Positions 9,541 through 43,673 of a DNA stretch of 64,000 nucleotides are shown in pieces. The position numbers were made by a program, and so were the translations under genes. The DNA comes from Microvirga antarctica (lineage in GTDB: Bacteria; Pseudomonadota; Alphaproteobacteria; Rhizobiales; Beijerinckiaceae): contig NZ_JAGEMM010000006.1 in NCBI RefSeq assembly GCF_017921815.1, forward strand, positions 248,001 through 312,000, read 5' to 3'. The notes under the pieces were generated by a model, which saw only the letters and a list, made by a program, of their open reading frames with translations, searched no databases and was not told the origin of the DNA. Every line of letters begins with the position of its first letter. Positions within the stretch are counted from its first letter, which is position 1.

Positions 9541-9556
9541 TCTAACGGTAGTTAGC
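9541..9556. promoter_or_regulatory. Regulon operator, site 1 (importer 1)
   Basis: TCTAAC-GGTA-GTTAGC: one mismatch from the shared palindrome TCTAAC-N4-GTTAGA. It lies in the gap between the SDR stop (9600) and the binding-protein start (9517), so it can only serve the leftward importer-1 operon. Confidence 0.75.
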
Positions 9557-9599
9557 TTTTGGGGCCGGTCAACGGCTATTCGTGGGCGAGCAGGCCCCG

Positions 9600-10445
9600 T
9601 TACTCTGCGTAGACTCCTGCGCTGAGAAGAGCGTTTGATCCGAGATCCGCTCCCTGGCGATTGGTGTAGTAGCCCGCGCACAATCCCCCATCGACCGGCA
9701 CCAGCGCGCCGGTGACGTAGGAGGCGGAATCGGACAGCAGAAAGAGAACCACGGCGGCGATTTCCTCCGGCTGCGCCATGCGGCCGAGGGGCGTGCGGTT
9801 CACGAGCACGTCCTCAAGATAGCGCGGCGGAATCCCCTTGCGGACGAGCGGTGTGTCGACGCCGTTTGGCGCGACGGCGTTGACGCGGATGCCGCGCCGT
9901 CCCCATTCGATCGCCAGGACGTCCGTCAGCCCGGTGATGCCGAATTTGGACGAGCAGTAATTGGCCCGGCCGGCCGAGCCGCCGAGCGAATTGACGGACG
10001 CGATATTGACGATCGCGCCGCGCCCGTGGGCGAGCATGCGCCGCCCTGCCGACTGGCAGGACAGGAACATGCCTTTGAGATTGGTGTCGACCACAAGATC
10101 CCAGGTCGCCTCGTCCATGGATTCGGCAGGCGAGGGCCGTGAGAGGCCGGCGGCGGTCACGAGGCCGGTGATGGGGCCGAAGGCCGCCTCCAGCGTGGCG
10201 ACCGCGTTTTCCGTCGCGTCGGCATCGCGCACGTCGAAGGGGAGAGCGATGGCCTTGCCACCCTCGGCGGCAATCGCGGACACGATGGCTTGTGCGGCGT
10301 CGGTCGCGATGTCGCCAATCCCGACGGCCGCGCCAGCCTTCGACAATGCCCGCGCGGTCGCTTCTCCGATGCCGGAGGCCGCGCCGGTAACCAGCACGGT
10401 GGACCCGGTGAAGTCGAAACGAGCGTCACTCGACGTTGGCCGCAT
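9600..10445 (-). CDS. SDR-family oxidoreductase
   Basis: Classical short-chain dehydrogenase/reductase, 281 residues. It has the cofactor motif TGAASGIG near 20-27, the NAG-like AAGLS (the usual Asn replaced by Ala), a serine in NIASVNS and the catalytic YCSSK. IGDIATDAA after beta-2 suggests NAD(H) preference (Asp at the end of the strand). The ATG 10443-10445 is chosen over an upstream TTG because GAGAAG lies eight bases before it. The C-terminal tail after the PVDGGL motif is about 25 residues longer than usual. It is transcribed alone, divergently from the next SDR, with operator site 2 between them. Substrate unknown. Confidence 0.85.
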   Translation of the reverse strand: MRPTSSDARFDFTGSTVLVTGAASGIGEATARALSKAGAAVGIGDIATDAAQAIVSAIAAEGGKAIALPFDVRDADATENAVATLEAAFGPITGLVTAAGLSRPSPAESMDEATWDLVVDTNLKGMFLSCQSAGRRMLAHGRGAIVNIASVNSLGGSAGRANYCSSKFGITGLTDVLAIEWGRRGIRVNAVAPNGVDTPLVRKGIPPRYLEDVLVNRTPLGRMAQPEEIAAVVLFLLSDSASYVTGALVPVDGGLCAGYYTNRQGADLGSNALLSAGVYAE

Positions 10446-10513
10446 GGACAATTCTTCTCACCTGCAGGACATCGAGGGTTGCTGGACAGCGTCATTTCAT
10501 GACTGTTGCATAA

Positions 10514-10529
10514 TCTAACATTCGTTAGA
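10514..10529. promoter_or_regulatory. Regulon operator, site 2 (divergent SDR genes)
   Basis: TCTAAC-ATTC-GTTAGA, a perfect match to the consensus palindrome. It lies 68 bp before the leftward SDR start and 125 bp before the rightward SDR start, so it can control both promoters. Confidence 0.85.
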
Positions 10530-10654
10530 TATTTAAGTCAATGACAGCTTGGCTTCACGATTGGCCAATTCCGCTGCCCGGGAGAGACTGCTCCACGCCG
10601 TCCTGTGAGGGCCGGCTACGCGCTCGGGCAGCGCAAACAGAAGAGGACGCGGCA

Positions 10655-11377
10655 ATGTCAGAATTCGATCGCCAGGTCTGCGTGGTGACAGGCGGCGGGC
10701 GCGGGATCGGGCGGGCCATCGTGGCGATGTTCGCGGCCGAGGGCGCTCATGTTCACTCTCTCGACACGTTCGAGCAGGCGCCGCTCGACGGTCACGTCAG
10801 TCTTCACAAATGCGACATCGCCGATTTGTCGGCCGTAGAGGCGTTCTTCGCTCAACTGGGAGCCGACTGCTCCCTCGACATCCTCGTCAATAACGCCGCA
10901 ACCGTCACCCGCGCTGTGCCGATCACGGAGCTTTCGGCCGAGGAATGGCAGCGCACGCTGGCGGTCAACGTCACGGGCGTTTTCAATGTGACCCGCAGCG
11001 CCCTCGGGCTCATGGGGAGTGGCGGACGGATCATCAATCTGGCGTCGACCTTTGCCCATGTGGGCTCCCCGGGGCGCGTCGCGTATTCGACCACCAAGGG
11101 TGCGATCCTGGCATTCACCCGGTCTCTGGCGCTGGATACGGCGGCGCTCGGCATCCGCGTCAATTCCATCTCGCCAGGCGGAATCGCCACCGATCGGCTG
11201 ATCGAGTTGTTCGGTTCGGAGGAGGCCGCCGAGGCGCATCTCGCCCCCCTGCATCCCATCGGCCATACCGGCAAGCCCGCGGATATCGCCAACGCCGTGT
11301 GGTATCTCGCGTCCCAGCGCGCAACCTTCATAACGGGCGCAGACCTGCGCGTGGACGGCGGCTACACCGCGCAATAA
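10655..11377 (+). CDS. SDR-family oxidoreductase
   Basis: 240-residue classical SDR. It shows TGGGRGIG (cofactor loop), DILVNNAAT, the serine in NLASTFAHVG and the catalytic YSTTK, and ends with the ITGADLRVDGGY block. Start at ATG 10655 with AGAGGA upstream; the longer frame to 10541 would contain no fold and comes close to the operator. It belongs to the regulon through site 2. The likely role is oxidation of a hydroxy intermediate or reduction of a keto intermediate of the pathway; substrate not deducible. Confidence 0.86.
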   Translation: MSEFDRQVCVVTGGGRGIGRAIVAMFAAEGAHVHSLDTFEQAPLDGHVSLHKCDIADLSAVEAFFAQLGADCSLDILVNNAATVTRAVPITELSAEEWQRTLAVNVTGVFNVTRSALGLMGSGGRIINLASTFAHVGSPGRVAYSTTKGAILAFTRSLALDTAALGIRVNSISPGGIATDRLIELFGSEEAAEAHLAPLHPIGHTGKPADIANAVWYLASQRATFITGADLRVDGGYTAQ

Positions 11378-11419
11378 GGGCTCTCCGTCGGCGCGATCGA
11401 CGTGCCGCTCGCAAGCCGC

Positions 11420-11447
11420 TTGCCAATCTTTCGAACGTCCGTTAGAT
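11420..11447 (+). promoter_or_regulatory. Predicted promoter overlapping operator site 3
   Basis: TTGCCA (11420-11425), a 16-bp spacer and TTAGAT (11442-11447) resemble a sigma-70 promoter. The operator TCGAAC-GTCC-GTTAGA (11431-11446) fills the spacer and its right arm forms the -10 box, so a bound regulator would exclude RNA polymerase. It would drive the EthD-like gene, etfB, etfA and the CoA-transferase. Confidence 0.6.
11431..11446. promoter_or_regulatory. Regulon operator, site 3 (EthD-etfBA-CoA-transferase operon)
   Basis: TCGAAC-GTCC-GTTAGA, one mismatch from consensus (T to G at position 3 of the left arm, a substitution shared with sites 6 and 7). It lies 42 bp before the first start codon of the operon. 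Confidence 0.8.
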
Positions 11448-11488: not shown

Positions 11489-11851
11489 ATGGCAGGCATG
11501 GCGAAGTACAATCTGATTGCGCTGACGAACCCGCTCGATGGTCGCGACGACGAATTCAACGAGTGGTACACGAACGTCCACTTGGCCGACGTCCTGAAGC
11601 TTCCGGGCGTCACCGCGGCCCAGCGCTACCGTCTCGCGGAGACACAGCATCGGGCGGGCCCGCTCGACTGGAAATACATGGCCGTCTACGAGATCGAGAT
11701 CGACGACATCTCGACCACGCTCTCGGCCCTGAAAGCCGCGAGCGGGACCGAAACCATGCCGTTGTCGCCGGCTCTTTCGCCTGAGCGCATGGTGTGGATC
11801 TTCGAGCCGATCACCGAGCGCGTCGAGCGCCCTGCCGCGATCGCCGGCTGA
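11489..11851 (+). CDS. EthD-like dimeric alpha/beta-barrel protein
   Basis: A 120-residue protein resembling the EthD/ferredoxin-like barrel family: [19 protein letters not shown], then the pattern [13 protein letters not shown] typical of EthD-like proteins, and ending VWIFEPI. Some members act as small monooxygenases or isomerases, but most are uncharacterised. An upstream start (11402) is excluded because the frame would run through the operator and promoter. The ATG at 11489 or the one nine bases later (11498) is the start; neither has a strong ribosome site. It is the first gene of the etf operon, 65 bp ahead of etfB. Confidence 0.72.
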
Positions 11852-11916
11852 TTCTGTCGCAAAATTTCGACGCGCCAAGCAAGCGCGCGCCATCTATCGG
11901 AGAGGTCACAAGCCCC

Positions 11917-12666
11917 ATGAAAGTGCTCGTCCCTGTCAAGCGGGTCGTCGATTACAACGTCAAGATCCGGGTCAAGTCCGACGGCTCCGGAGTCGAGCTC
12001 GCCAACGTCAAGATGTCGATGAATCCGTTTGACGAAATCGCCGTTGAAGAGGCGATCCGCCTCAAGGAGGCCGGCAAGGTCGACGAGATCGTCGTGGTGT
12101 CGATCGGGCCGGCGCAGGCGCAGGAAACCCTGCGCACCGCCCTCGCGATGGGCGCCGACCGGGCCATCCTCGTCAAGGTCGAGCACGCGGTCGAGCCGCT
12201 CGGCGTGGCCAAGGTTCTGAAGGGTGTCGTGGAGGCCGAACAGCCAGGCCTCGTCATCCTCGGAAAGCAGGCCATCGACGACGATGCCAACCAGACCGGA
12301 CAGATGCTTGCGGCCCTCCTCGGCTGGGCGCAGGGAACCTTCGCGTCGAAGGTCGAGATCGACGGCGACAAGGCCCGCGTGATCCGCGAGGTCGATGGCG
12401 GCTTGCAGACGATCGACTTGAAGCTTCCGGCCATCGTGACGACGGATCTGCGGCTCAACCAGCCGCGCTACGCCTCGCTGCCCAACATCATGAAGGCCAA
12501 GAAGAAGCCCCTCGACGAAAAGAGCCCGGCGGATTTCGGCGCCGACGTGACGCCCCGTCTCGAGGTCCTCAAGACCGAGGAGCCCGGCGGCCGGAAAGCG
12601 GGCGTCAAGGTCAAGTCCGTGGCCGAGTTGGTCGACAAGCTCAAGAACGAAGCCGGCGTTCTCTAA
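11917..12666 (+). CDS. etfB: Electron transfer flavoprotein beta subunit
   Basis: 249 residues, standard EtfB length. Typical stretches are [18 protein letters not shown] at the N-terminus, [35 protein letters not shown] and the AMP-binding part [25 protein letters not shown]. With EtfA it accepts electrons from acyl-CoA dehydrogenases and passes them to ETF-ubiquinone oxidoreductase, which is not in this window. Placement inside the regulon indicates a dedicated ETF copy for the four dehydrogenases encoded nearby (inference). Confidence 0.95.
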
Positions 12667-12692
12667 GCGCCGCGACGAGGAAACAGATCATC

Positions 12693-13622
12693 ATGGATAT
12701 TCTTCTGATCGCCGAACACGACAATGCCACCCTGTCGGACCAGACCGCCAAAGCGCTGTCGGCAGCGCTGAAGATGGGTGGCAGCGTGGATATCCTTGTG
12801 GCAGGTCACGAGGCGAAAGCAGCGGCCGACGCGGCAGCGAAACTGGCAGGCACGCGCAAGGTGCTGCTCGCGGACGCCTCCGAACTGGCGCAACGCCTCG
12901 CTGAACCGCTGGCCGCACTGGTAGTGTCGTTGGCCGGTTCCTACGATGTCATTGTTGCCCCCGCGACAGCAGCGGGCAAAAATGTCGCGCCGCGCATTGC
13001 AGCGCTTCTCGATGTGGCGCAGATCTCTGAAATCGTGGAGGTCATCTCGGCCGACACCTTCAAGCGCCCGGTCTATGCGGGCAACGCCATCCAGACCGTG
13101 CGCTCCACTGACGCCAAGAAGGTCATCACCGTGCGCACCGCGTCGTTCCAGGCGGCGGGCGAGGGCGGGTCCGCTCCCGTCGAGACGGTTCAGGCCGCGA
13201 CCGATCCCGGGCTGTCGACCTTCGTGGAAAACAACCTCTCGAGCAGCGATCGCCCCGAACTGACATCTGCCCGGATCATCATTTCCGGCGGTCGGGCGCT
13301 GGGCTCGGCCGAAAAGTTTCAGGAGGTCATGATCCCGCTCGCGGACAAGCTCGGCGCAGCCCTCGGCGCAAGCCGGGCGGCTGTCGATGCCGGCTACGCG
13401 CCGAACGACTGGCAGGTGGGTCAGACCGGCAAGGTCGTGGCGCCGGATCTCTACATCGCCGTCGGCATTTCCGGAGCCATCCAGCATCTGGCCGGCATGA
13501 AGGATTCGAAGTTCATCGTGGCCATCAACAAGGATGAGGAGGCGCCCATCTTCCAGGTCGCCGATTACGGACTTGTCGGTGACCTGTTCACCCTCCTGCC
13601 GGAACTCGAAAAGGCCCTATGA
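12693..13622 (+). CDS. etfA: Electron transfer flavoprotein alpha subunit
   Basis: 309 residues, normal for EtfA. The C-terminal FAD-binding domain is clear: ISGGRALGS near 199-207, [30 protein letters not shown] around 248-277, then [20 protein letters not shown]. The gene follows etfB after 26 bp, with GAGGAAA as ribosome site, and is followed by the CoA-transferase after one base, so the three are one transcript. Confidence 0.96.
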
Positions 13623-13623
13623 C

Positions 13624-14853
13624 ATGACAGAGGTCTCCGGCGCACTCGCCGGCCTGAAAGTGGTCGACCTCACCCAGATGCTGGCGGGGCCCTATTGCAC
13701 GATGCTGCTGGCCGACCAAGGTGCCAGCGTCGTCAAGATCGAGCCGGTCAATGGCGATCCCACGCGGCATTTCGGGCCGTTTCGGGAGGATGATACCCTT
13801 CATCACTTCGGCGGGTATTTTCAGAGCACCAACCGCAACAAGAAGAGCGTTGCGCTCGATCTCAAGTCACCGGACGGCAAGGCGCTGTTCCTGCGCCTCG
13901 CGAAAGACGCCGACGTGGTGGTTGAGAACTTCCGCGCCGGTGTCATGGACCGCCTCGGTATCGGTTATGAAGTGCTGGCGGCGGCCAATCCGCGGCTGGT
14001 CTATGCGGCGATCCGTGGCTTTGGCGACCCGCGCACCGGCAGCAGTCCTTACGTCGACCGGCCTGCCTTCGACGTCGTCGCCCAGGCGATGGGCGGCGCG
14101 ATGGGCATCACCGGCCCCGATGCGCAGACGCCCATGAAGATCGGGCCGGGCGTTGGCGACATCTTTCCAGCCTCGCTGGCGGCTTTCGGCATCATGGCGG
14201 CCTTGCATCACGCGGGCCGCACGGGGCAGGGGCAGTTCGTCGACGTGGCCATGTATGACGGGATTCTCGCCATGTGCGAGCGCATCGTCTACCAGTACTC
14301 CTATGTGGGAAAATCGCCCGTGCCCGAGGGAAACCAGCACCCGATCCTGTGTCCATTCGGCACCTTCGCGGCCAAGGACGGCCAGGTGACCGTCGGCTGT
14401 CCGCGCGATTCGTTCTGGCGCGAGCTGGCGACGATCATGGGGCGTCCCGAACTGGTGGACGATCCGAGATTCTCTTCCAACAACGCCCGCCTTGCTCATT
14501 CGGGAGAAACGGTCGCGATCGTGGAGGGCTGGACGTCGGCCCGCACCAAGGCCGAAATCGCGCTGGCGCTCGACGGACGCGTGCCGTTTGGGCCCGTCAA
14601 CACGGCCGCCGACATCTATGCGGACCCGCATGTGGCCGCCCGCAATATGCTGGTAGAAGTCGAGCATCCGGGCTCGTCCACACCCGTCACCATCGCGTCG
14701 ACGCCTGTTCGCATGACGGCAACACCCGGCGGCGTGTTTCATCGGGCGCCGCTCGTGGGCGAGCACACAACCGAAGTGCTGTCGGGGCTGGGTCTGTCGG
14801 GCGACGACATTGCCGAGCTCAAGGCGCGAGGGGTGGTCGCAGGGGGAGAGTGA
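13624..14853 (+). CDS. CaiB/BaiF class III CoA-transferase
   Basis: 409 residues, full length for the family. N-terminal GLKVVDLTQMLAGPYCTMLLADQGA and VVKIEPVNGDPTR, then NRNKKSVALDLKSPDG, and RPAFDVVAQAMGGAMG, where Asp150 matches the catalytic aspartate of class III enzymes. It moves CoA from a donor such as succinyl-CoA or acetyl-CoA onto a carboxylic acid by a ping-pong-like route. Start is ATG 13624, directly after the etfA stop. Substrate unknown; together with two AMP-ligases and an NDP-forming synthetase it is one of four CoA-activating routes in the regulon. Confidence 0.92.
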   Translation: MTEVSGALAGLKVVDLTQMLAGPYCTMLLADQGASVVKIEPVNGDPTRHFGPFREDDTLHHFGGYFQSTNRNKKSVALDLKSPDGKALFLRLAKDADVVVENFRAGVMDRLGIGYEVLAAANPRLVYAAIRGFGDPRTGSSPYVDRPAFDVVAQAMGGAMGITGPDAQTPMKIGPGVGDIFPASLAAFGIMAALHHAGRTGQGQFVDVAMYDGILAMCERIVYQYSYVGKSPVPEGNQHPILCPFGTFAAKDGQVTVGCPRDSFWRELATIMGRPELVDDPRFSSNNARLAHSGETVAIVEGWTSARTKAEIALALDGRVPFGPVNTAADIYADPHVAARNMLVEVEHPGSSTPVTIASTPVRMTATPGGVFHRAPLVGEHTTEVLSGLGLSGDDIAELKARGVVAGGE

Positions 14854-14899: not shown

Positions 14900-15211
14900 T
14901 CAGCGGATGGGCGAAAAGCTCGTGGGCTTCAGGATGGTCGTTTCCATCGTCTGGATAAAGGACGTCGTTTTCGGCCCGAACGCGATCCATTCCGGGTCCG
15001 CATAAAGCTTGGCGCGCAGGTCGTCGCGCTGCTGCATGTTGTCGTATCCCCACATTGTGATGACCTGGTTCAGCGTGCCGAGCTCAGTGACGAAATAGCC
15101 GATCATCTTGAGGTACTTGGTGTGCAGTGCGAGGCCCTCTGCCTCGTAAAGGGCAAGGAATTCCTGGAGTTTTCCCGGGTGGAACGTGTAGGTGCGCTTC
15201 TCGATGATCAC
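14900..15211 (-). CDS. NIPSNAP-family protein
   Basis: A 103-residue small ferredoxin-like alpha/beta-barrel protein. IIEKRTYTFHPGKLQEFLALYEAEG at the start and the central GYFVTELGTLNQVITMWGY match NIPSNAP proteins. Start is the GTG at 15209-15211 with GAGGGG eight bases upstream; a longer frame would run through operator site 4. The function of bacterial NIPSNAP proteins is not established, though they are frequent next to acyl-CoA degradation genes. It diverges from the acyl-CoA dehydrogenase with the operator between. Confidence 0.85.
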   Translation of the reverse strand: MIIEKRTYTFHPGKLQEFLALYEAEGLALHTKYLKMIGYFVTELGTLNQVITMWGYDNMQQRDDLRAKLYADPEWIAFGPKTTSFIQTMETTILKPTSFSPIR

Positions 15212-15273: not shown

Positions 15274-15289
15274 TCAAACAAATGTTAGA
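15274..15289. promoter_or_regulatory. Regulon operator, site 4 (NIPSNAP / ACAD divergent)
   Basis: TCAAAC-AAAT-GTTAGA, one mismatch from consensus. It is nearly centred between the two divergent start codons (62 bp to the NIPSNAP start, 65 bp to the dehydrogenase start). Confidence 0.75.
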
Positions 15290-15354: not shown

Positions 15355-16491
15355 ATGTTAGAACGAACCCTCTTTTCCGAGGAACACGAGATGTTCCGCG
15401 AGTCCGTCCGGCGTTTCATGGAACGCGAACTCGCCCCCCATCACGAAGAATGGGAAGAGAAAGGCGAAGTCCCGCGCTGGGCGTGGAAGAAGGCCGGCGA
15501 GCAGGGCTTTCTGTGCGTAGCCATTCCCGAGGAATGGGGCGGCGTGGGCGCTGACCGGCGCTACTCGATCATTCTGATGGAAGAGCAGGCGCGGCTGAAC
15601 CTGACCGGTCTCGGCTTCGCGCTCCATTCCGACATCGTCGCACCCTATATCCATCATTACGGCACGACCGAGCAGAAGCTTGCTTGGCTGCCCAAGATGG
15701 CGAGCGGCGACGCGATTGCGGCCATCGCCATGACCGAACCCGGCGGCGGCTCGGACCTCCAGGCGATCCGCACTACCGCAATCCGCGACGGTGACGATTA
15801 CATCATCTCGGGTCAGAAGACGTTCATCACCAACGGCCAGACGGCCGATCTCTTTCTCGTGGCCTGCAAAACCGACCGGGCGGAAGGCGCCCGCGGCATC
15901 AGCCTCGTGATGGTGGAGGCCGATCGCGCCGGATTCCAGCGCGGGCGCCGGCTGAAGAAGCTGGGGACGAAAGCGCAGGATACCTCGGAGCTTTTCTTCA
16001 ACGATGTGCGGGTGCCTGTCACCAATCGCATCGGCGAGGAGGGCAAGGGGTTTGCGTATATGATGCAGGAACTCGCCTGGGAGCGCATGCATGTGGGCAT
16101 CCAGGCCGTGTCCTGCTGCGAGGCGGCACTGGGCTGGACCATCGACTACACGAAGCAGCGCCGCGCCTTCGGCAAGGCCATCATCGAATTCCAGAACTCG
16201 CGCTTTACCCTCGCCGAAATGAAGACCGAAGTGCAGGTCGGACGCGTGTTCCTCGACCGTTGTCTGGAGTTGGTCCTCGAAGACAAACTCGACACCACGA
16301 CGGCCGCCATGGTCAAGCTCTGGACGAGCGAGATGCAGGGCAAGGTGCTGGACGCCTGCCTGCAGCTTCACGGCGGCTACGGGTATATGTGGGAATATCC
16401 GATCACGCGCGCTTTCGCGGACGCGCGTGTGCAACGCATCTATGCCGGCACCAATGAGATCATGAAGGAGCTCATTGGCCGGACGCTGTGA
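15355..16491 (+). CDS. Acyl-CoA dehydrogenase, long-chain/LCAD-like
   Basis: 378-residue FAD enzyme that forms a 2,3-double bond in an acyl-CoA and reduces ETF. Signature blocks are AIAMTEPGGGSDLQ, SGQKTFITNGQTADL, RRAFGKAII and LQLHGGYGYMWEYPI. At the MCAD catalytic-Glu position it has Ala (IYAGTNEI) as in LCAD, and the Glu of QELAWERM matches the alternative LCAD catalytic base. Start ATG follows GGGAGG. It is preceded by operator site 4 and appears to be transcribed alone, since the next gene is on the other strand. Confidence 0.92.
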   Translation: MLERTLFSEEHEMFRESVRRFMERELAPHHEEWEEKGEVPRWAWKKAGEQGFLCVAIPEEWGGVGADRRYSIILMEEQARLNLTGLGFALHSDIVAPYIHHYGTTEQKLAWLPKMASGDAIAAIAMTEPGGGSDLQAIRTTAIRDGDDYIISGQKTFITNGQTADLFLVACKTDRAEGARGISLVMVEADRAGFQRGRRLKKLGTKAQDTSELFFNDVRVPVTNRIGEEGKGFAYMMQELAWERMHVGIQAVSCCEAALGWTIDYTKQRRAFGKAIIEFQNSRFTLAEMKTEVQVGRVFLDRCLELVLEDKLDTTTAAMVKLWTSEMQGKVLDACLQLHGGYGYMWEYPITRAFADARVQRIYAGTNEIMKELIGRTL

Positions 16492-16507: not shown

Positions 16508-17389
16508 CTAGCCGGCGGCGAGGTCTGTCCGTCTCGCGGAGGCGTAGTCCCGCCAGGTGATCGGCTGGCGTCCGGTCACGCGCGCGACCGTGTCGTAGAC
16601 CGCGCCCGCGAGCGGCATCTCGCCCGCCTCGATGGCCGCGACTCCCGTTGCGAGACTGGTGGCATAGACCGGTTCCATGCCTTGTTTGAGAAGGATGGGC
16701 AGCAGGCTCGCAGCGGGCCTTGGCTGGTAGGTCACGGGGTTCTGCGTCACGTCGGACAGGGTTGCGGCGATCTCCGACATGGTCAGCGCCTCGATGGCGA
16801 GCGGATAGATCTGTCCGGCGTGTTTGTCGGGCTCGCGCAAGGCGGCTGCGGCGACGGCCGCCATGTCGTCGGACGAGATCCAGCTCACGCGTTGATCGCC
16901 GATGAAATGGACCACGCGGTCGGGCCGATGGCGGAACGCGCCCCAGACGGTATCGATGAAGAAGTTGGGCCTCAGGTGCGTGAACGAGAAGCCCATCGCC
17001 TCGATGGCGCGCTCGATGAGCTGATGCCAGCCGAAATGGGCGTAGGGTGTGTCATCTGCCGCCAGCGCGCCGAGATGAACGATATGCGGCACGCGGGCCG
17101 CCTTGGCGGCGTCCAGCAGGCGCTTCGACTGGATCATCATGTCGACGCTGTAGCCCGTCACCAGGAAGATGGAATCCACGCCCTCGAGTGCAGGCCGCAG
17201 TGTCCTGGGGTCGTCATAGTCGAACGCCACCGGTTCGAAGCCGGATTCGCGCAGTCTCGCGGCTCCGGCATCGCTGCGCGTGGCCCCCAGCAGTTCGATC
17301 GCGCCAGCGGCAGCATCCGGTGCGAGCGCTCTCATGGCCGCTCCGCCCACCGTTCCGGTCGCGCCGGTCACCAAGATCCGTCTGGTCAT
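16508..17389 (-). CDS. NmrA/atypical-SDR NAD(P)-binding oxidoreductase
   Basis: 293 residues with an N-terminal Rossmann motif TGATGTVGGAAM (near 7-18), the pattern VDSIFLVTGYSVDM and HIVHLGALAADDTPYAHFGWH, then FTHLRPNFFIDTV, typical of NmrA-like and related atypical SDRs. It lacks the YxxxK pair of classical SDRs. Members act as quinone or isoflavone-type reductases or as NAD(P) sensors. It is a single leftward gene, with operator site 5 only 18 bp before its start codon. Confidence 0.83.
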   Translation of the reverse strand: MTRRILVTGATGTVGGAAMRALAPDAAAGAIELLGATRSDAGAARLRESGFEPVAFDYDDPRTLRPALEGVDSIFLVTGYSVDMMIQSKRLLDAAKAARVPHIVHLGALAADDTPYAHFGWHQLIERAIEAMGFSFTHLRPNFFIDTVWGAFRHRPDRVVHFIGDQRVSWISSDDMAAVAAAALREPDKHAGQIYPLAIEALTMSEIAATLSDVTQNPVTYQPRPAASLLPILLKQGMEPVYATSLATGVAAIEAGEMPLAGAVYDTVARVTGRQPITWRDYASARRTDLAAG

Positions 17390-17407: not shown

Positions 17408-17423
17408 TCTAACATATGTTCAT
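17408..17423. promoter_or_regulatory. Regulon operator, site 5 (NmrA-like gene), degenerate
   Basis: TCTAAC-ATAT-GTTCAT: the left arm is perfect, the right arm has three mismatches. It is the weakest of the ten sites, but its position (18 bp before the start codon) and spacing agree with the others. Confidence 0.5.
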
Positions 17424-17514: not shown

Positions 17515-17542
17515 TTGCGCTGTTTTCGAACGAGTGTTAGTT
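17515..17542 (+). promoter_or_regulatory. Predicted promoter overlapping operator site 6
   Basis: TTGCGC (17515-17520), 16 bp, TTAGTT (17537-17542). Operator site 6 lies across the spacer and -10 box in the same geometry as at 11420 and 33013. It would start the eight-gene operon 17645-25243. Confidence 0.6.
17526..17541. promoter_or_regulatory. Regulon operator, site 6 (aldolase-module operon)
   Basis: TCGAAC-GAGT-GTTAGT, two mismatches from consensus. It lies 103 bp before the SDR start at 17645 and 102 bp from site 5, so the divergent gap carries one operator per promoter. Confidence 0.75.
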
Positions 17543-17644: not shown

Positions 17645-18400
17645 ATGCGTCGTCTTGAAGGAAAACTCGCCGTCGTCACGGGTGCAGCAAATGGCATCGG
17701 CCGTGCATCGGCCCTCCGGTTCGCATCCGAGGGCGCCAATCTCGCCATCATCGACATGGAAGAGGAAGGCCTCGCCGTCACGGCGGATAAGGCGCGCGAA
17801 GCGGGCGCAACGGTGCTGACGATCACGGCCAACTGCACCGATGAGGACGTCGTGGCGGACGCCTTCAAACGGATTTATGCCGAGGCAGGCTTCGTCGACA
17901 TTCTCATGAACAATGTCGGGCAGAGTGCCCGTCAGCGCGCGTCAGAGTTTTATGCCTCATCGTCGGAGGTGTGGCGCTTCGTGCTGGAAGTCTCGCTGAT
18001 GTCGACGCTGATCTCGTCGCGCCAGGTTGTTCCCGCCATGCGGGAGGCCGGCAAGGGCAAGATCGTGAACGTCGCGTCCAATGCGGGTCTGGCCGGCGAG
18101 GTCGGATTGTCCGAATATGCTGCTGCCAAAATGGGTGTGATCGGGTTCACCCGCTCGCTGGCCCGCGAGCTGGCGCCATTCCGCGTGAACGTCAACGCGA
18201 TCTGCCCCGGTGTGACCAAGACGCGCATCATCGGCAATATTTCCGAGGACATCCTCGAGAAGATCCGCCAGTCGATCCCGCTGGGGTTCTTCGCCGAACC
18301 CGAGGATATCGCGGCCACAGCGGCCTTCCTTGCAAGCGAGGATTCTCGCTACATGACGGGCCAATCGGTCGTCGTCGACGGCGGACGCTGGATGGTTTGA
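17645..18400 (+). CDS. SDR-family oxidoreductase
   Basis: 251-residue classical SDR with TGAANGIG, DILMNNVGQS, NVASNAGLAG and the catalytic YAAAK; IIDMEEEGL after beta-2 carries an Asp, pointing to NAD(H). Start ATG 17645 has GGGAGG nine bases upstream; the frame extends further up but through the promoter. First gene of the long rightward operon. A 98-bp gap with a small stem-loop separates it from the next SDR. Confidence 0.87.
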   Translation: MRRLEGKLAVVTGAANGIGRASALRFASEGANLAIIDMEEEGLAVTADKAREAGATVLTITANCTDEDVVADAFKRIYAEAGFVDILMNNVGQSARQRASEFYASSSEVWRFVLEVSLMSTLISSRQVVPAMREAGKGKIVNVASNAGLAGEVGLSEYAAAKMGVIGFTRSLARELAPFRVNVNAICPGVTKTRIIGNISEDILEKIRQSIPLGFFAEPEDIAATAAFLASEDSRYMTGQSVVVDGGRWMV

Positions 18401-18410
18401 CGGTCCGCGA

Positions 18411-18433
18411 CGATCGCCATTGGCGGGCGATCG
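18411..18433. other. Small stem-loop in the operon gap
   Basis: CGATCGCC (18411-18418) and GGCGATCG (18426-18433) form a perfect 8-bp stem with a 7-nt loop in the 98-bp gap between two SDR genes. No T-run follows, so it is not a terminator; it could be an RNA-processing or stability element. Confidence 0.4.
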
Positions 18434-18498
18434 CGCAGAGAGCACACGTTGGTTTTAATATTTGCAGAAGCTGCAACACATGAAAAGGCGCCCCTGAC

Positions 18499-19410
18499 AT
18501 GGGAAAGATGCTGGAAAACAAAGTGGCCCTGGTGACAGGAGCCGGACGCGGCATCGGCCGAGAGATCGCCATGATGATGGCAGCCTACGGCGCCAAGGTC
18601 GTGGTCAACGATCCCGGCGTGTCGCTCGAGGGAAAAGACGAGAGCGATGCGCCTGCCCGTGAAGTCGTGCGCGAGATCAAGAGCGCTGGCGGCGAGGCGG
18701 TCGCGGATTTCGGGTCGGTCTCCGATTCGGAGCAGGCGCGTGCCATGGTCAAGACCGCTGTCGACACGTTCGGCAAGATCGACATCGTCGTCAACAACGC
18801 CGGCATCCTGCGCGACGTCATCTTCCACAAGATGACGGACGAGGACTGGGATTCGGTCCTCAAGGTTCACCTGTACGGCAGCTACAATGTCAGCCGCGCG
18901 GCCGCCGAGCATTTCCGCAAGCAAGAGAGCGGCACCTTCGTCCACATGACCTCCACGTCGGGTCTCGTGGGAAATCCCGGTCAGGCGAACTACTCCGCTG
19001 CCAAGATGGGTATTGTCGGTCTGTCGAAATCGCTGGCCCTCGATATGGCGCGCTTCAACGTCCGCTCGAACTGCATCTCGCCCTTCGCCTGGAGCCGCAT
19101 GGTCGGCTCGATTCCGAACACACCGGATCAGGAAGAGCGACTGAAGAACCTCAGAATGCTGACCCCCGACAAGATCGCGACGCTCGCGGTCTTCCTGGCA
19201 AGCGAAGACGCCAAGGATGTCAACGGACAGATCCTGGCGGTGCGCGGAAACGAGATCTTCCTCATGAGCCAGCCGCGGCCCCTGCGCTCGGTTCATCGCT
19301 CGGAAGGCTGGACGCCCGAGACCCTTCGCGACCACATGCTGCCGACGCTCAAGCCGTCCTTCATTCCGCTGGAAATGTCGCGCGATGTCTTTTCCTGGAA
19401 CCCGGTCTGA
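18499..19410 (+). CDS. SDR of the peroxisomal multifunctional-enzyme (MFE-2/HSD17B4) type
   Basis: 303 residues, longer than a classical SDR. Motifs are TGAGRGIGRE, VNDPGVSLEGKDES (the long insert after beta-2 typical of MFE-2 hydroxyacyl-CoA dehydrogenases), VNNAGILRD, HMTSTSGLVGN and the catalytic YSAAK. The C-terminal tail of about 50 residues beyond the fold contains RSEGWTPETLRDHMLP. The MFE-2 resemblance and the adjacent hydratase genes suggest a (3R)-hydroxyacyl-CoA dehydrogenase, or an SDR acting on the aldolase product; not decided by sequence. Confidence 0.85.
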   Translation: MGKMLENKVALVTGAGRGIGREIAMMMAAYGAKVVVNDPGVSLEGKDESDAPAREVVREIKSAGGEAVADFGSVSDSEQARAMVKTAVDTFGKIDIVVNNAGILRDVIFHKMTDEDWDSVLKVHLYGSYNVSRAAAEHFRKQESGTFVHMTSTSGLVGNPGQANYSAAKMGIVGLSKSLALDMARFNVRSNCISPFAWSRMVGSIPNTPDQEERLKNLRMLTPDKIATLAVFLASEDAKDVNGQILAVRGNEIFLMSQPRPLRSVHRSEGWTPETLRDHMLPTLKPSFIPLEMSRDVFSWNPV

Positions 19411-19412
19411 CG

Positions 19413-20284: not shown

Positions 20285-20288
20285 AATC

Positions 20289-33040: not shown

Positions 33041-33093
33041 TTTCGATTGGTGTAGCCTGCGGCCAAAGAGACAGAGTGCTTCGGGAGGAGCTG

Positions 33094-33873: not shown

Positions 33874-33896
33874 GCGGACGAACAGAGGATGTGCCG

Positions 33897-35441
33897 ATGA
33901 AGGTGCCGCAGACGATCGCCGACATGCTCGACAACAATGCGTGGAAATATCCAGACGAAACCGCCTTCGTCTGGAACGACACGCGCGTCACCCATGCGCA
34001 GTTTCACGAACGGGCGAGTCGCCTGGCCAGCGCGCTCCGGAGCCTGGGGCTGAAGCGGCAGGACCGTGTCGGAATTCTCAGCCAGAACTCGTTGGCCTTT
34101 CAGGAGGTCTACGGCGCCTGCGAGCTATCGGGCTTCATCTGCGCGACGGTGAACTGGCGTCTCGCGATCCCCGAGATGGTCTACATCATCAATGACGGCG
34201 CGCCGAAGGTGCTGATCTTCGAGGCAGACTATGCCGACACGGTCTCGGCGATGAAGGATCAGCTGAAGAGCGTCGAGCACTATATCTGCATCGACGGCGC
34301 GGTCGACTTCGCTGCCGGATTCGACGATGTGGTCGCATCGGGCGATCCGTCGGGGGTTCCCTTCCGGCCGCGGACGGACGACGTGGCGTTCCTGATCTAT
34401 ACCAGCGGCACCACCGGGCGCCCAAAAGGTGTCATGCTCTCCCATGGTGGGCAGGTCGCCGCGGCGGAAATTCTCGGCTCCGATCAGCGCAATTCGCCGG
34501 CCGACCGGCTCCTGATCATGATGCCGCTTTTCCATATCGGGGCGAAGATCATCCAGATCGCGCAGCATTGGCGCGCCGGCACTGTCGTGGTGCAGAAGGG
34601 CTTTGACGCGAAGGCCATCCTGGATTGCATTGAGCGTGAAAAGATCACCGTGACGCACATGGCGCCGACCATGATCCAGAGCCTCCTCGACTCGCCGGCG
34701 ATCGGCAGCACAGATACGTCGAGCCTGCGGATGATCGTCTATGCGGCAGCCCCCATGCCCATCCCAGTCCTGAAGCGCGGCCTGAAGATTCTCGGGCCGG
34801 TATTTCAGCAGCAATTCGGCCAGACCGAAGGGATCGGAACCACCCTGCTCGCTCATCAGCACAGGCCCGACGGGACCGACCGCGACCGTGAAATTCTGAC
34901 GTCGGTTGGCCAAGCGTCGCCGCGCGTTAATGTGCGGATCGTCGACGATAACGGCGAGCCGGTGCCGACGGGCAGTGTGGGCGAGATCCTGCTGACCAGC
35001 CCGGGCGTGATGAAAGGCTATTGGAACAACACGGCGGCGACGCTTGAGACGTTGCGGGATGGCTGGGTCCATACGGGCGATGTGGGGAGGCTCGACGACG
35101 AGGGATTCCTCTATCTCGTCGACCGCAAGAAGGACATGATCATCTCGGGCGGGGAAAACATCTATTCGCGCGAAGTTGAAGAGGCGGTGGTTACCCACGA
35201 GAGCGTCTCTGAAGTGGCAGTCATTGGCGTTCCGGACGAGAAATGGGGCGAGGCTGTCATGGCCGTGGTGGTGCTCAAGCCGGGCGCCGCGCCCAGCGTC
35301 GAAGAGATCGTCGAACATTGCCGCACGATGATCGCCAGCTACAAGAAGCCACGCTTCGTGAGGTTCGTGGACGAGATCGTGAAGTTGCCGAGCGGCAAGA
35401 TCGACAAGGTTCGGCTACGGCGGCTCTATGCAAGCAGCTGA
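33897..35441 (+). CDS. AMP-forming acyl-CoA ligase (FadD-like), paralogue of the ligase at 27365
   Basis: 514 residues. P-loop LIYTSGTTGRPKGVML, FGQTEGIG, HTGDVGRLDDEG, DRKKDMIISGGENIYSREVEE and the C-terminal Lys in PSGKIDKVRLR. A GTG six bases upstream is possible, but ATG 33897 has AGAGGA at good distance. The pair of ligases may act on the parent acid and on a downstream acid, as FadD17/FadD3-type pairs do in steroid degradation (analogy only). Confidence 0.92.
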   Translation: MKVPQTIADMLDNNAWKYPDETAFVWNDTRVTHAQFHERASRLASALRSLGLKRQDRVGILSQNSLAFQEVYGACELSGFICATVNWRLAIPEMVYIINDGAPKVLIFEADYADTVSAMKDQLKSVEHYICIDGAVDFAAGFDDVVASGDPSGVPFRPRTDDVAFLIYTSGTTGRPKGVMLSHGGQVAAAEILGSDQRNSPADRLLIMMPLFHIGAKIIQIAQHWRAGTVVVQKGFDAKAILDCIEREKITVTHMAPTMIQSLLDSPAIGSTDTSSLRMIVYAAAPMPIPVLKRGLKILGPVFQQQFGQTEGIGTTLLAHQHRPDGTDRDREILTSVGQASPRVNVRIVDDNGEPVPTGSVGEILLTSPGVMKGYWNNTAATLETLRDGWVHTGDVGRLDDEGFLYLVDRKKDMIISGGENIYSREVEEAVVTHESVSEVAVIGVPDEKWGEAVMAVVVLKPGAAPSVEEIVEHCRTMIASYKKPRFVRFVDEIVKLPSGKIDKVRLRRLYASS

Positions 35442-35483
35442 GCCGGTGAGGAGATGCCGCCTGGGCGGCAAGGAGGATTCGGG

Positions 35484-36269
35484 ATGCTCGAACTGTTTTC
35501 GCTGAAGCAGAAGGTCGCCGTCATCACAGGCGCAAGCCGTGGCCTCGGCAAGACGATGGCCAAGGGCTTGGCCGCCGCGGGCGCGCACGTGGTGCTCATC
35601 GCGCGCGATGCCGACAAGTTGAATAAAGTGCGTGACGACATCCTCGAAGCGGGCGGCCAGGCGACCGCGCTTCCTCTCGACCTCGCGGACGAGGCGGCTA
35701 TCCGCACCGGTATCCAGACGATCGGCCGGGAACTCGGGCGGATCGACATCTGCGTCAACAATGCGGGCATCATCAACTGGCAGCCGCTGCTGGACAGCGA
35801 TGTCGACGATTTCGAGCGCATCATGGACACGAACGTCAAGGCGACGTTCGTGATGTCGCAGGAATGCGCCGCCATCATGCGTGCCGGTGGACGCGGCGGG
35901 CGCATCATCAATCTGGGCTCGCTGTTGTCGTCTCTCGGCCGAGCCAAGCTCCATGCCTATTGCGCGAGTAAGTCGGCGATCGTCGGCCTGACACGCTCGC
36001 TTGCAGCCGAACTTGGCCGCGACAACATCACGGCCAATGTCATCGCGCCCGGTTATTTCGTCACGGACATCAACGAGAGCGTGACCTCGCGCCCCGGCTA
36101 TGTCGAGGCTGTCAGCGGCGTCACGCCCATGGAGCGGTGGGGACAGCCTGACGAACTCGTCGGCACGCTGATCTATCTCGCGTCTGGCGCCTCGAGCTTC
36201 GTGACCGGACAGGTGATCCACGTGGATGGCGGTATCCAGGCCACCTTCACCTTCCAACTCGCGGCCTAA
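35484..36269 (+). CDS. SDR-family oxidoreductase
   Basis: 261 residues: TGASRGLGKT, DICVNNAGIIN, NLGSLLSSLGRA and catalytic YCASK; LIARDADKL with Arg after beta-2 points to NADP(H). It resembles gluconate-5-dehydrogenase-like and 3-oxoacyl-ACP-reductase-like SDRs. Start ATG follows AGGAGG; a longer frame begins 30 bases earlier but lacks a ribosome site. Confidence 0.87.
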   Translation: MLELFSLKQKVAVITGASRGLGKTMAKGLAAAGAHVVLIARDADKLNKVRDDILEAGGQATALPLDLADEAAIRTGIQTIGRELGRIDICVNNAGIINWQPLLDSDVDDFERIMDTNVKATFVMSQECAAIMRAGGRGGRIINLGSLLSSLGRAKLHAYCASKSAIVGLTRSLAAELGRDNITANVIAPGYFVTDINESVTSRPGYVEAVSGVTPMERWGQPDELVGTLIYLASGASSFVTGQVIHVDGGIQATFTFQLAA

Positions 36270-36279
36270 GGGGACGGAT

Positions 36280-37062
36280 ATGACCGAACGATTTTCACTG
36301 AAGGGCCAGGTCGCCGTGGTCACCGGCGCGTCCCGCGGGCTGGGCTACGAGATGGCGCGCGCCGTCGCTGAATCCGGTGCCCGCGTGTACATGACAGCGC
36401 GCGGCAAAGACCAACTCGAGAAATCGGCCGCAACTTTGCGGGCGCTGAACCTGGACGTGCACGCCTACGCATTCGATCTCTCGGACGGCGACGCGTGCGT
36501 TTCTGCGATCCGCGAAATCGGGGCGGCCGAGGGTCGGGTGGATATTCTCGTCAACAATGCGGGGATCAATGCCTGGGAGCCGCTCGCCGAGGCCAAAACC
36601 TCGACGTGGGATAATGTGATCGCCACGAATGTTCGCGGCCCCTATCTTTTGTGCCGTGAGGCGGCGCGCTTCATGGTGGACAAAGGATACGGACGGATCG
36701 TCAATGTTGGATCGGCGCTGGCCGTCACCGGCCGGGAGAAAATCGCCGCCTATGTGTCCAGCAAGCACGGTCTTGCCGGTCTCACCCGCGCCTTGGCGGC
36801 TGAATTGGGACCGAAGGGTGTCACCTGCAACATGATGGCTCCGGGGTATTTTCTCACCGAGATCAACACCAGTATCCTGGCAAGGCCCGGCTACGAGAAG
36901 GGTGTCTCGAGCCGCATATCGCTCGGCCGCTGGGGTGATCCCGAGGAAGCCGCAGGGGTCGTTGCGTTCATGGTGTCGAAGGCGTCGAGCTACATGAACG
37001 GCCACATCCTGGTCGTCGATGGCGGCTTGACCGAGACCTTTGTTCTGCCGGTGGATGCCTGA
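36280..37062 (+). CDS. SDR-family oxidoreductase
   Basis: 260 residues: TGASRGLGYE, DILVNNAGINAWEP, NVGSALAVTGRE and catalytic YVSSK; MTARGKDQL suggests NADP(H). It is clearly a tandem paralogue of the preceding SDR (shared FSLKxxVAVxTGASRGLG start, PGYFxTxIN and RPGYxxxVS blocks). Ten bases separate the two genes. Confidence 0.87.
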   Translation: MTERFSLKGQVAVVTGASRGLGYEMARAVAESGARVYMTARGKDQLEKSAATLRALNLDVHAYAFDLSDGDACVSAIREIGAAEGRVDILVNNAGINAWEPLAEAKTSTWDNVIATNVRGPYLLCREAARFMVDKGYGRIVNVGSALAVTGREKIAAYVSSKHGLAGLTRALAAELGPKGVTCNMMAPGYFLTEINTSILARPGYEKGVSSRISLGRWGDPEEAAGVVAFMVSKASSYMNGHILVVDGGLTETFVLPVDA

Positions 37063-37068
37063 GGAAAC

Positions 37069-37803
37069 ATGATGAGCGAGAAGGAAGTTGCGCTGGTCAC
37101 CGGCGCGGGACGCGGCATCGGGCTTTCGACCGTCAGGCGATTGCTGGCGGACGGATTTCACGTGGTCATGGTCGATCTTTCGGCCCAACCGCTCGAGACA
37201 GAGGCTGCGACGCTGCGTGCAGCAGGACATCCGGTCGAGCATCGGGTGCTGTCGATCACCGATCGTGCGGCGGTCGCGGCGATGATGGCGAGCCTGACCA
37301 GACTGGATGTCCTCGTCAACAATGCGGCGGTTTTCTGGGACGGTCGGTTCGATTCCATTACCGAGGACGACTTCACGAAAATGTATGAGGTCAATGTCGT
37401 CGGTACGTTCGTGATGGCGCAGGAAGCCCTCAAGGTGATGAAGCGCGGCTCGCGCATCATCAACGTCGCCTCACGCGCCTACCTCGCCGGCTACGCCCAT
37501 GCGCCGTACATCACGTCGAAGGCCGGCACCGTCGGACTGACCCGCGGCATGGCCTTCGATCTGGCCGAGAAGGGCATCATGGTCAACGCGGTTGCGCCCG
37601 GGCTCATCGAGACCGACATGTTCCGCTCACTGACGCCCGAGCGTCAGCAGGAACTCATCGCCAAGCAGCCCACCAAGACCGTTGGACAGCCGGAGGATAT
37701 CGCCAACGGCATCGCGTTCTTCGCCGACCCTCGCACGAAGAACGTGACCGGGCAGATCCTGACCCTGGACGGCGGCCGCTCCATGGGGATCTCGATCTAC
37801 TGA
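37069..37803 (+). CDS. SDR-family oxidoreductase
   Basis: 244 residues: TGAGRGIG, DVLVNNAAVFW, NVASRAYLAG and catalytic YITSK; VDLSAQPL indicates NAD(H). Similar to the SDR at 30284. Two ATG codons in tandem start the gene (37069, 37072). Last gene of the rightward operon, converging with importer 2 across a terminator. Confidence 0.87.
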   Translation: MMSEKEVALVTGAGRGIGLSTVRRLLADGFHVVMVDLSAQPLETEAATLRAAGHPVEHRVLSITDRAAVAAMMASLTRLDVLVNNAAVFWDGRFDSITEDDFTKMYEVNVVGTFVMAQEALKVMKRGSRIINVASRAYLAGYAHAPYITSKAGTVGLTRGMAFDLAEKGIMVNAVAPGLIETDMFRSLTPERQQELIAKQPTKTVGQPEDIANGIAFFADPRTKNVTGQILTLDGGRSMGISIY

Positions 37804-42650: not shown

Positions 42651-42652
42651 CG

Positions 42653-42709
42653 TCAGCCGCGCCGCTCGAAACCAGCGAAGCCGGTCGCTGGGAAACCTGG
42701 TGTGTTCAT
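42653..42709 (-). CDS. 18-residue leader peptide upstream of livG (importer 2)
   Basis: ATG (42707-42709) preceded by GGGAGG seven bases upstream opens the frame MNTPGFPATGFAGFERRG, which stops two bases before the livG ATG. The strong ribosome site belongs to this frame and not to livG. No known family. It may be a coupling leader that feeds ribosomes into livG, or the remnant of a longer gene. Confidence 0.5.
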   Translation of the reverse strand: MNTPGFPATGFAGFERRG

Positions 42710-42765
42710 GTGAAATCCTCCCTTCGACCCCTGCCGATCTCCGCCGGGCTGGTCCAGACAAAAAC

Positions 42766-42781
42766 TCTAACAGTTGTTCGA
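42766..42781. promoter_or_regulatory. Regulon operator, site 9 (importer 2)
   Basis: TCTAAC-AGTT-GTTCGA, one mismatch from consensus (A to C in the right arm, mirror image of the T-to-G change seen in left arms of sites 3, 6 and 7). It lies 56 bp before the leader start and downstream of the crotonase-fold gene that ends at 42823, so it serves the leftward importer-2 operon. Confidence 0.78.
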
Positions 42782-42822
42782 AAACTTGTCACCATGCCTT
42801 ATGGATTTCGCCATCGGCGCGC

Positions 42823-43593
42823 TCATCGTCCTGAAAGGACTGGCTTTCTCTTTTCGAGAAAGGCCGTCATGGCTTCCCGCTTGTCCTCCGAATCGAACAG
42901 CAGATAGGCCGCCCGTCGCTCCAGCATCAGCGCGGTGTCGAGGGGAGCGTCGAGGCCGGCATGCAGCACCTGCTTGATCTCGGCGACAGCGAGTGGCGGC
43001 ATGGCGGCGATCGTGGTGGCGATAGCGATCGCCCGGGCGACCGTGTCGTCATCGGGAGTGACGAGACTCACAAGGCCCGCCTCATAAGCCTCGCGCGCCG
43101 ACATCGAACTTCCAGTCAGCAGCATGAGCATGGCCCGGTAGCGGCCAATGGCACGGGCAAGTCTCTGCGTGCCGCCCGCGCCTGGCATAATGCCGAGCTT
43201 CACCTCCGGCTGCCCGAAAGTCGCTCCTTCACCAGCCACGATGATATCGGCGTGCATGGCGAGTTCACAGCCGCCGCCCAGCGCATAGCCGTTCACCGCC
43301 GCGATGATCGGCTTGGGCGAGTGGCGGATGGCTGACCAGTTCAGGTCGTCGTTCCGGCGCATCATCTCGCCCGGACCGATAGACACCATCGAGCGGATGT
43401 CGGCGCCCGCCGCGAACGCTTTCTGATCACCGGTGAGCACGATCGCCCGCACTTCGGGATCCTCGGCCATGGCGAGAAATTTTGCGCGCAACTCGCCTCG
43501 AAGCTCAGGACTCAGGGCATTGCGTGCCTCCGGCCTGTTCAGGCGCAGGAGCACGACATAGGGCGCGGGCCGCTCTTCCAGGACCAATGACAT
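42823..43593 (-). CDS. Enoyl-CoA hydratase/isomerase-family protein
   Basis: 256 residues, the most hydratase-like of the three crotonase-fold proteins here: FAAGADIRSM, NGYALGGGCELAMHAD and FGQPEVKLGIMPGAGGTQRL, with the first catalytic Glu kept in PEV. The second Glu is Leu by eye-alignment (AMLMLLTG). Single leftward gene, divergent from the CitE-like operon with operator site 10 between. Confidence 0.9.
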   Translation of the reverse strand: MSLVLEERPAPYVVLLRLNRPEARNALSPELRGELRAKFLAMAEDPEVRAIVLTGDQKAFAAGADIRSMVSIGPGEMMRRNDDLNWSAIRHSPKPIIAAVNGYALGGGCELAMHADIIVAGEGATFGQPEVKLGIMPGAGGTQRLARAIGRYRAMLMLLTGSSMSAREAYEAGLVSLVTPDDDTVARAIAIATTIAAMPPLAVAEIKQVLHAGLDAPLDTALMLERRAAYLLFDSEDKREAMTAFLEKRKPVLSGR

Positions 43594-43657
43594 GGGCGTT
43601 CCTCCGGGATCGCATGGTTCTGCCGGTTCACGCCGAGGGGCGTTTCCGCAGTTGAAT

Positions 43658-43673
43658 TCTAACGAGGGTTAGA
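43658..43673. promoter_or_regulatory. Regulon operator, site 10 (ECH / CitE-mch divergent)
   Basis: TCTAAC-GAGG-GTTAGA, perfect match; the symmetry extends two more bases on each side (ATTCTAAC...GTTAGAAT, 43656-43675). It is 64 bp before the leftward crotonase-fold start and 104 bp before the rightward lyase start. Confidence 0.87.

Follow-up and report, generated by a model that had tools for sequence, protein, structure and literature searches.

The stretch analysed here, 64,000 nucleotides of a Microvirga antarctica contig (NZ_JAGEMM010000006.1; the window, below), contains an island of 44 genes (4764-47756) in which one palindrome, TCTAAC-N4-GTTAGA, recurs between the genes and in which a TetR-family protein is encoded (32248-32922). 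The island genes specify two Liv-type ABC transporters, an electron-transfer flavoprotein and a CoA transferase; four acyl-CoA dehydrogenases, eight SDR proteins plus one NmrA-like protein, three MaoC-type and three crotonase-family proteins; two AMP-forming CoA ligases and one of the ADP-forming type, and a thiolase with an OB-fold partner; and an MmgE/PrpD protein, two HpcH/HpaI lyases, a metallo-beta-lactamase-fold protein, a NIPSNAP protein and a 120-residue protein with no Pfam match. The second permease of the first transporter (6249-7274) is named from its place and its match in Microvirga flavescens. Domain scans of the island proteins turned up no oxygenase family, and the TetR protein is the only regulator among the cluster genes scanned.

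Scanning the window recovered all ten sites of TCTAAC-N4-GTTAGA at the coordinates listed in the initial annotation, each with a 4-bp spacer: two are perfect (10514 and 43658), six have 1 mismatch (9541, 11431, 15274, 25257, 33024 and 42766), and the other two have 2 (17526) and 3 (17408). At up to 3 mismatches the window holds 16 matches (6.2 expected; maximum of 11 in 100 shuffles). The six further matches lie at 9537 (a shifted overlap of the 9541 site), 26868, 30151, 34895 and 42893, with 3 mismatches each, and at 63183, with 2 mismatches and outside the island. Within the island TCTAAC-N4 has 8 sites at no more than 1 mismatch; for the 89 other arms composed of those letters the mean is 0.03 and the maximum 2. 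When all 4096 arms were enumerated with spacers of 2-7, one arm exceeded it (the G+C-rich TCGACG-N4, with 9 sites); the raw count alone would therefore not single out TCTAAC-N4, and it is placement that does so.

Non-coding DNA makes up 4.9% of the island, according to a gene caller trained on the window genes. The 15274 site would fall inside a minus-strand gene if the caller's start at 15343 were taken; a GTG at 15211, behind GAGGGG, is judged the likelier start, and the NIPSNAP domain is located within 14900-15211, so that all ten sites can be counted as intergenic, as had been claimed. With this start, each called unit of the island is preceded by a site, again in agreement with the initial annotation, and divergent units share the sites at 10514, 15274, 33024 and 43658. 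The features are listed below, with the strand in brackets and, at the end, the matching M. flavescens position (the high end of the site there) or the share of relatives' loci, described further on.

4764-47756 (no strand): whole regulon island, 44 genes, order common to M. flavescens
32248-32922 (-): predicted TetR-family repressor; Pfam TetR_N 55.8 bits (cut-off 24), TetR_C_24 81.9 bits (cut-off 26.4)
9541-9556 (-): putative operator 23 bp before SBP1, first Liv-type ABC transporter (9517 down to 4764); 111441
10514-10529 (no strand): perfect putative operator between divergent SDR genes 9600-10451 (-) and 10541-11377 (+); 110506, plus a second site at 110387
11431-11446 (+): putative operator before hyp120-etfB-etfA-CoA transferase (11489-14853); 109560
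15274-15289 (no strand): putative operator between the NIPSNAP gene (14900-15211, -) and an acyl-CoA dehydrogenase gene (15355-16491, +); 105758
17408-17423 (-): weak putative operator 18 bp before the NmrA-like gene 16508-17389; 103591 (2 mismatches)
17526-17541 (+): putative operator before the SDR-SDR-MaoC-MaoC-thiolase-OB-ACAD-ADP-forming-type CoA ligase operon (17645-25243); 103413 (2 mismatches)
25257-25272 (+): putative operator before ECH-ACAD-CoA ligase-MmgE-SDR-ACAD (25323-32195); 95684; 13 of 18 relatives' loci
33024-33039 (no strand): putative autoregulatory site between tetR (-) and ECH-CoA ligase-SDR-SDR-SDR (33076-37803, +); site with up to 2 mismatches before tetR in 18 of 18 close relatives
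42766-42781 (-): putative operator before the second Liv-type ABC transporter (42761 down to 37893); 78201; 10 of 18 relatives' loci
43658-43673 (no strand): perfect putative operator between ECH (42823-43593, -) and HpcH lyase-MaoC-MBL-HpcH lyase (43778-47756, +); 77310

Elsewhere in the window, a dCTP deaminase gene (1221-2312, plus strand) lies opposite a long minus-strand open reading frame (624-2390) with an ApaG domain at its far end; the stretch of this frame facing the deaminase gene is probably non-coding.

Conservation in relatives and across the TetR clade

In M. flavescens the 44 genes, from livF1 to HpcH2, occur in identical order with 70-94% protein identity, and all ten window sites have counterparts. 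Extra sites lie there at 110387, 102486 and 118208; that at 118208 is perfect and is followed by an acyl-CoA-dehydrogenase-like gene with no counterpart in the window (G005:C25, L147). None of three window flank proteins, to which the flank comparison was limited, had a match among the genes beyond the M. flavescens island, and the island therefore looks discrete. It is also accessory, because just 3 of 37 genus genomes contain a match to the ACAD4 protein (31032-32195) at E<=1e-150 (its own, M. flavescens and, at 70%, G024) and the TetR protein is strongly matched, among the matches listed, in 2 of the 37 (its own and M. flavescens). The stretch from G024 (L143) has no site at 1 mismatch or fewer.

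A contig scan with the TetR protein gave 36 loci, 18 of which (L009-L026) come from close relatives at 59-78% identity. A site lies upstream of tetR in every one of these (13 with at most 1 mismatch, 5 with 2). Sites with up to 2 mismatches also stand before ECH1 (13 loci) and livG2 (10 loci); several of the 18 loci stop short of these genes or do not have them. Conservation before the same genes thus extends over the 18 loci and, in M. flavescens, over all ten positions, in keeping with the regulon that the initial annotation had proposed. One locus, L025, from a betaproteobacterial metagenome-assembled genome (TetR 59% identical), has a different gene set with two perfect sites (9902 and 16310), one of them before its TetR gene; a BadI-like protein is also encoded there (459 bits, cut-off 467.6). 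Among 18 weak or partial matches (L027-L044) no site occurs at 1 mismatch or fewer and four occur at 2 mismatches, in three loci; 25 weak homologues (L049-L073) have no site at up to 2 mismatches.

Homologue searches of 397 genomes of the order, 385 of the class and 398 of the phylum, together with the genus relatives, gave 28 further loci at 39-51% identity (27 of them distinct, L088 and L091 giving the same protein). Within about 400 bp upstream, 9 of these have a site at 1 mismatch or fewer and 18 have one at 2 or fewer, with perfect sites in L098, L101, L104 and L110. The 89 permuted arms reach at most 1 of the 28 loci, compared with 9 for TCTAAC-N4, and none of 42 more distant TetR loci has a TCTAAC-N4 site at up to 1 mismatch. 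In an enumeration of all 4096 arms with spacers of 2-7 (L073 left out), TCTAAC-N4 heads the ranking for the upstream regions of the close set (13 of 18); in the distant set the top two places go to this same site, written as TTCTAA-N6 (10 of 28) and then as TCTAAC-N4 (9 of 28).

A maximum-likelihood tree of 77 TetR rows (76 different; L032-L044, L073, L003-L008 and L045 left out) places all 37 site-bearing proteins in one branch of 48 rows, with support of 91/88, below the tool's star. The site label changes 9 times over this tree, compared with a mean of 26 after shuffling (0 of 500 shuffles were as low), indicating that it is clustered, with losses or missed sites. The motif follows the clade into other gene sets (L025, L098, L104 and L110). 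Ten neighbour proteins chosen from nine clade loci include three BadH-like (329-369 bits, cut-off 431) and two BadI-like ones (456-459 bits, cut-off 467.6), all five below cut-off; because 5 of the 10 are of these two kinds, alicyclic acyl-CoA pathways are hinted at for the wider clade. The sites, their placement and conservation, and their tie to the TetR clade are all direct results of the computation. Two adjacent clade TetR genes stand in tandem in L088/L091 (G091:C1:1573742-1574991), and in L047 (G045:C115) two TetR matches lie within one open frame.

Putative operator-promoter layout and proposed mode of control

The deviations from the palindrome had been described as mirror-symmetric, which is true and incomplete, since they sit in the arm away from the gene. 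Among 35 single-direction sites (from the window, M. flavescens and L011-L026, many of them related by descent), the gene-distal, upstream arm has more mismatches in 29, 6 are ties and none is reversed. In the window the upstream arm has the more mismatches in 5 of 5 (at 17408, all 3 are there), and its two perfect sites both stand at divergent promoters. With the ten sites read in 14 directions, the promoter-like hexamers near them average 7.86 out of 12, compared with 6.71 at random intergenic positions, and 0 of 5000 resamplings were as high. For six of these directions the second hexamer is TAGATT, TAGAAT, TAGTTT or TAGAGT, of which TAG(A/T) forms the last bases of the downstream arm. Most simply, two constraints would act on the gene-proximal arm, one from the repressor and one from the promoter: mismatches would fall in the gene-distal arm probably because the proximal arm overlaps the -10 box, and the same two constraints would also account for the mirror symmetry. 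Three points weaken this reading. The A+T richness of the sites is enough to raise such hexamer scores; outside those six directions the second hexamer lies in the spacer or just beyond, or is unconvincing; and a stricter promoter scan, which found a minus-strand promoter across 10514 and another touching 43658 by one base, found none at 25150-25340, so that individual promoter assignments are uncertain.

With sites before tetR in 18 of 18 close relatives and in 18 of the 28 loci at 39-51% identity, the assignment of the TetR protein (32248-32922) is strongly supported. It has the family's PF00440 and PF17932 domains above cut-off and a palindrome at its own promoter (33024), and the motif tracks its clade even where gene content differs, which upholds the initial view of a single repressor, most likely this protein. 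Judged from these sequence comparisons, it very probably binds TCTAAC-N4-GTTAGA at the ten places and represses the island. We infer the following course of events. The protein, presumably as a dimer, would bind the palindromes and silence its own gene, the two Liv-type ABC importers and the catabolic operons; the operator would be superimposed on the promoter, its proximal arm GTTAGA probably being part of the -10 box in many promoters, so that bound repressor would block RNA polymerase. A CoA thioester formed early in the pathway, probably that of an alicyclic or methyl-branched acid, would likely release it, leading to a joint switch-on of uptake, activation, beta-oxidation-like steps and lyase cleavage. 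The inducer would thus probably be an alicyclic or branched acyl-CoA. The solved structures matched by the island TetR include KstR2, FadR and MbdR. TetR proteins can also act as activators (PMC13104628), and the island TetR might be one; we consider this very unlikely, the sites overlapping promoter-like hexamers, where binding should block transcription.

Genome-wide distribution and a second TetR protein

Several observations weigh against control of these sites by the island TetR. In the window genome (4.52 Mb, 220 contigs) there are 17 sites at 1 mismatch or fewer, just modestly above the 11 of a backwards control pattern, and the signal lies in clustering and placement (8 of the 17 are in the island, within a span of 34 kb), not in number. 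Of 26 matches in the genome to a looser form, TCDAAC-N4-GTTHGA, 6 are in the cluster and 20 elsewhere (its backwards control, with 2 sites, differs in composition and is hence a poor one). Per-genome totals in all eight relatives scanned, 3-10, fall below their backwards controls of 7-25. L020 has the ECH1 operon with no site before it at up to 2 mismatches, 10 of the 28 loci at 39-51% identity have no such site upstream, and the sites in related loci are not independent of one another. Finally, a TetR paralogue in the same genome, 62% identical to the island TetR, may share the sites.

Because counts fall below the control in eight of eight relatives, genome-wide counting was dropped as a test, and only positions are informative. 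Whole-genome scans at up to 1 mismatch covered the genomes of 8 of the 18 close loci. In M. flavescens all 10 sites fall in the island region, within 41 kb; all 6 sites of L011 are on two contigs, the second not examined for genes; and the TetR's own contig or stretch holds 6 of 8 sites for L012, 7 of 9 for L013, 5 of 5 for L016, 6 of 6 for L017, 5 of 6 for L019 and 2 of 3 for L025 (pooled, 47 of 53, or 44 when the unexamined contig of L011 is not counted). The initial remark that no site occurs outside the region holds for the window at up to 1 mismatch; it does not hold for the 2-mismatch match at 63183, nor for the genome, where nine more sites at up to 1 mismatch occur (4 inside predicted genes, 2 overlapping gene ends and 3 intergenic). 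As to density elsewhere, the closer matches do cluster, whereas the looser form lies mostly outside. Neither this check nor that of the sites in relatives, both proposed in the initial annotation and carried out in part, refuted the regulon. That the palindromes are transcript hairpins, repeats or chance would agree with inverted repeats at intergenic places and with numbers not above control in relatives; such an origin is vanishingly improbable, because the letters, not just the pairing, are kept in relatives, the sites precede genes, and they track the TetR clade.

Two operator-like sites of the genome, C154:194672 and C154:194694, the latter one of the nine outside sites, form a pair 22 bp apart (C154:194672-194709; L080:4979-5016) upstream of a thiolase-family gene that is present in 36 of 37 genus genomes. 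Across 30 thiolase loci examined, one per genome, no such double site was found in the 29 others (M. flavescens included), and the pair lies upstream of a conserved promoter-like stretch, in the part that does not align (14 of the 30 loci were aligned). On these two grounds we rejected the pair as an old member of the regulon; it would be a recent recruit or chance.

The TetR paralogue is encoded on a different contig, C220, in an island of its own (C220:101340-111473; L074, L075) together with a Liv-type transporter, a thiamine-diphosphate (TPP) enzyme, an FAA hydrolase, SDR proteins, an FAD-linked oxidase and an aldehyde dehydrogenase. This island has two sites, C220:102327 with 2 mismatches and C220:111458 with 1, the latter belonging to the three intergenic outside sites, and the regulon is for that reason not exactly the 'self-contained' one first described. 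Both TetR proteins might share one regulon, the two islands being cross-regulated via one operator: they group as sisters in the tree, with support of 94/81 (below the tool's star), and both C220 sites fit the same palindrome. We find this possible but rather doubtful, as no site precedes the paralogue's gene and the paralogue stands on a long branch, so that its specificity may have drifted. A different arrangement, in which the island TetR is a passenger and another regulator binds the sites, could draw on the paralogue, with its same-kind sites nearby, or on a PsrA-like fatty-acid TetR, since the PsrA operator TTCAAAC-N4-GTTTGAA is one base off per 6-base arm (PMC13104628). It is highly improbable, given that island TetR and motif co-occur in all 18 close relatives, that M. 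flavescens has all sites present and one strong TetR match (5.7e-108) among the matches listed (4 at E<=0.001), and that the motif accompanies the island TetR's clade into other gene sets.

Returning to the island TetR as repressor, we put forward a broader proposal tentatively, as one that we would stop short of calling probable: a TetR clade of the Alphaproteobacteria and at least one betaproteobacterial metagenome-assembled genome may use one operator, TCTAAC-N4-GTTAGA, whose proximal arm doubles as part of the promoter, as a portable cassette on several alicyclic or branched-acid CoA-thioester pathways, travelling as a complete regulon island, duplicated here to found a second island and perhaps capturing a core thiolase gene. 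Apart from that proposal, the results link a catabolic pathway in one step with a probable regulator, an operator and a 44-gene regulon, and the short motif allows related catabolic islands to be found by sequence alone. The arm asymmetry offers a simple account of operator-promoter fusion, and the C220 island illustrates how a repressor may be duplicated along with its type of site.

Comparison with known pathways and operators

The best structure matches of HpcH1 and MaoC3 are a malyl/beta-methylmalyl-CoA lyase and a MaoC/beta-methylmalyl-CoA dehydratase, and the CoA transferase reaches 481 bits against a mesaconate CoA-transferase model (cut-off 700), so that the pathway may have a mesaconyl-CoA-like ending. 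A route from itaconate or through beta-methylmalyl-CoA was nevertheless considered and dropped; further structure searches, run for the MmgE protein, ACAD2 and HpcH2, were not decisive for the starting substrate. Monoterpene degradation, as in Castellaniella, was considered from the literature and dropped. A bad-ali (cyclohexanecarboxylate) cluster was rejected, the window proteins scanned falling well short of the BadH and BadI models: SDR3 scores 168.3 bits to BadH (cut-off 431.2), BadH is not among the best 25 rows for SDR1 and SDR2 (of the eight SDR proteins, SDR1-SDR3 were in the NCBIfam scan), and BadI is not among the matches listed for the three ECH proteins (best 25 of 29 for one).

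DesT, a TetR protein, reportedly has an operator of the GAAC...GTTC type. The literature on TetR operators and alphaproteobacterial TetR regulons yielded no description of TCTAAC-N4-GTTAGA in the titles and abstract openings of the papers listed, most subscription papers lying outside the search. The operators of KstR, KstR2, MbdR, BkaR, EdcR and BadR differ in letters or spacing. Like the island TetR, mycobacterial KstR and KstR2 (cholesterol) are TetR proteins with palindromes at their own promoters and at those of many CoA-dependent catabolic operons, and their operators, TnnAACnnGTTnnA (PMC1995591) and AnCAAGnnCTTGnT (PMC3068626), have other spacing or letters; identity with KstR was rejected (NF033703, 29.5 bits against a cut-off of 280; spacer of 4 here, not 2), as was identity with Bacillus FadR (NF053878, 67.2 bits against 200). 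MbdR of Azoarcus (3-methylbenzoate) resembles our system as a catabolic TetR repressor with sites overlapping promoters, is released by a CoA thioester and differs in its operator, ATAC-N10-GTAT (PMC4424350). BkaR/Fad35R of mycobacteria is a TetR protein with a 16-bp palindrome and an autoregulated catabolic operon, and its operator, GTTAnT-N4-AnTAAC, is unlike the one found here (PMC3920632). BadR of Rhodopseudomonas and Aromatoleum is a CoA-thioester-responsive repressor of alicyclic acid genes, and TetR genes of the present clade lie partly beside BadH/BadI-like genes; BadR belongs to the MarR family and recognises CAAN4TTG (PMC9795900), whereas the island regulator is of the TetR and not the MarR type.

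The nearest published operator found is that of PsrA, a TetR regulator of fatty-acid metabolism in Pseudomonas, with the footprint TTCAAAC-N4-GTTTGAA at rpoS of P. putida and the site GAAAC-N4-GTTTC at psrA of P. aeruginosa (PMC13104628). The AAC-N4-GTT core, the 4-bp spacer and, putatively, autoregulation are shared, whereas the third base of the 6-base arm is T or G here and A in PsrA, and the gene set is different. Identity with PsrA was rejected (NF053516, 48.6 bits against a cut-off of 300, over residues 9-84 only), and 9 of the 10 sites lack the CAAAC or GAAAC arm of the PsrA pattern (G/C)AAAC-N2-4-GTTT(G/C), the 15274 site having one TCAAAC arm. Set beside these systems, what is new is the way operator and promoter are laid out together and how broad a TetR clade has this operator in common.

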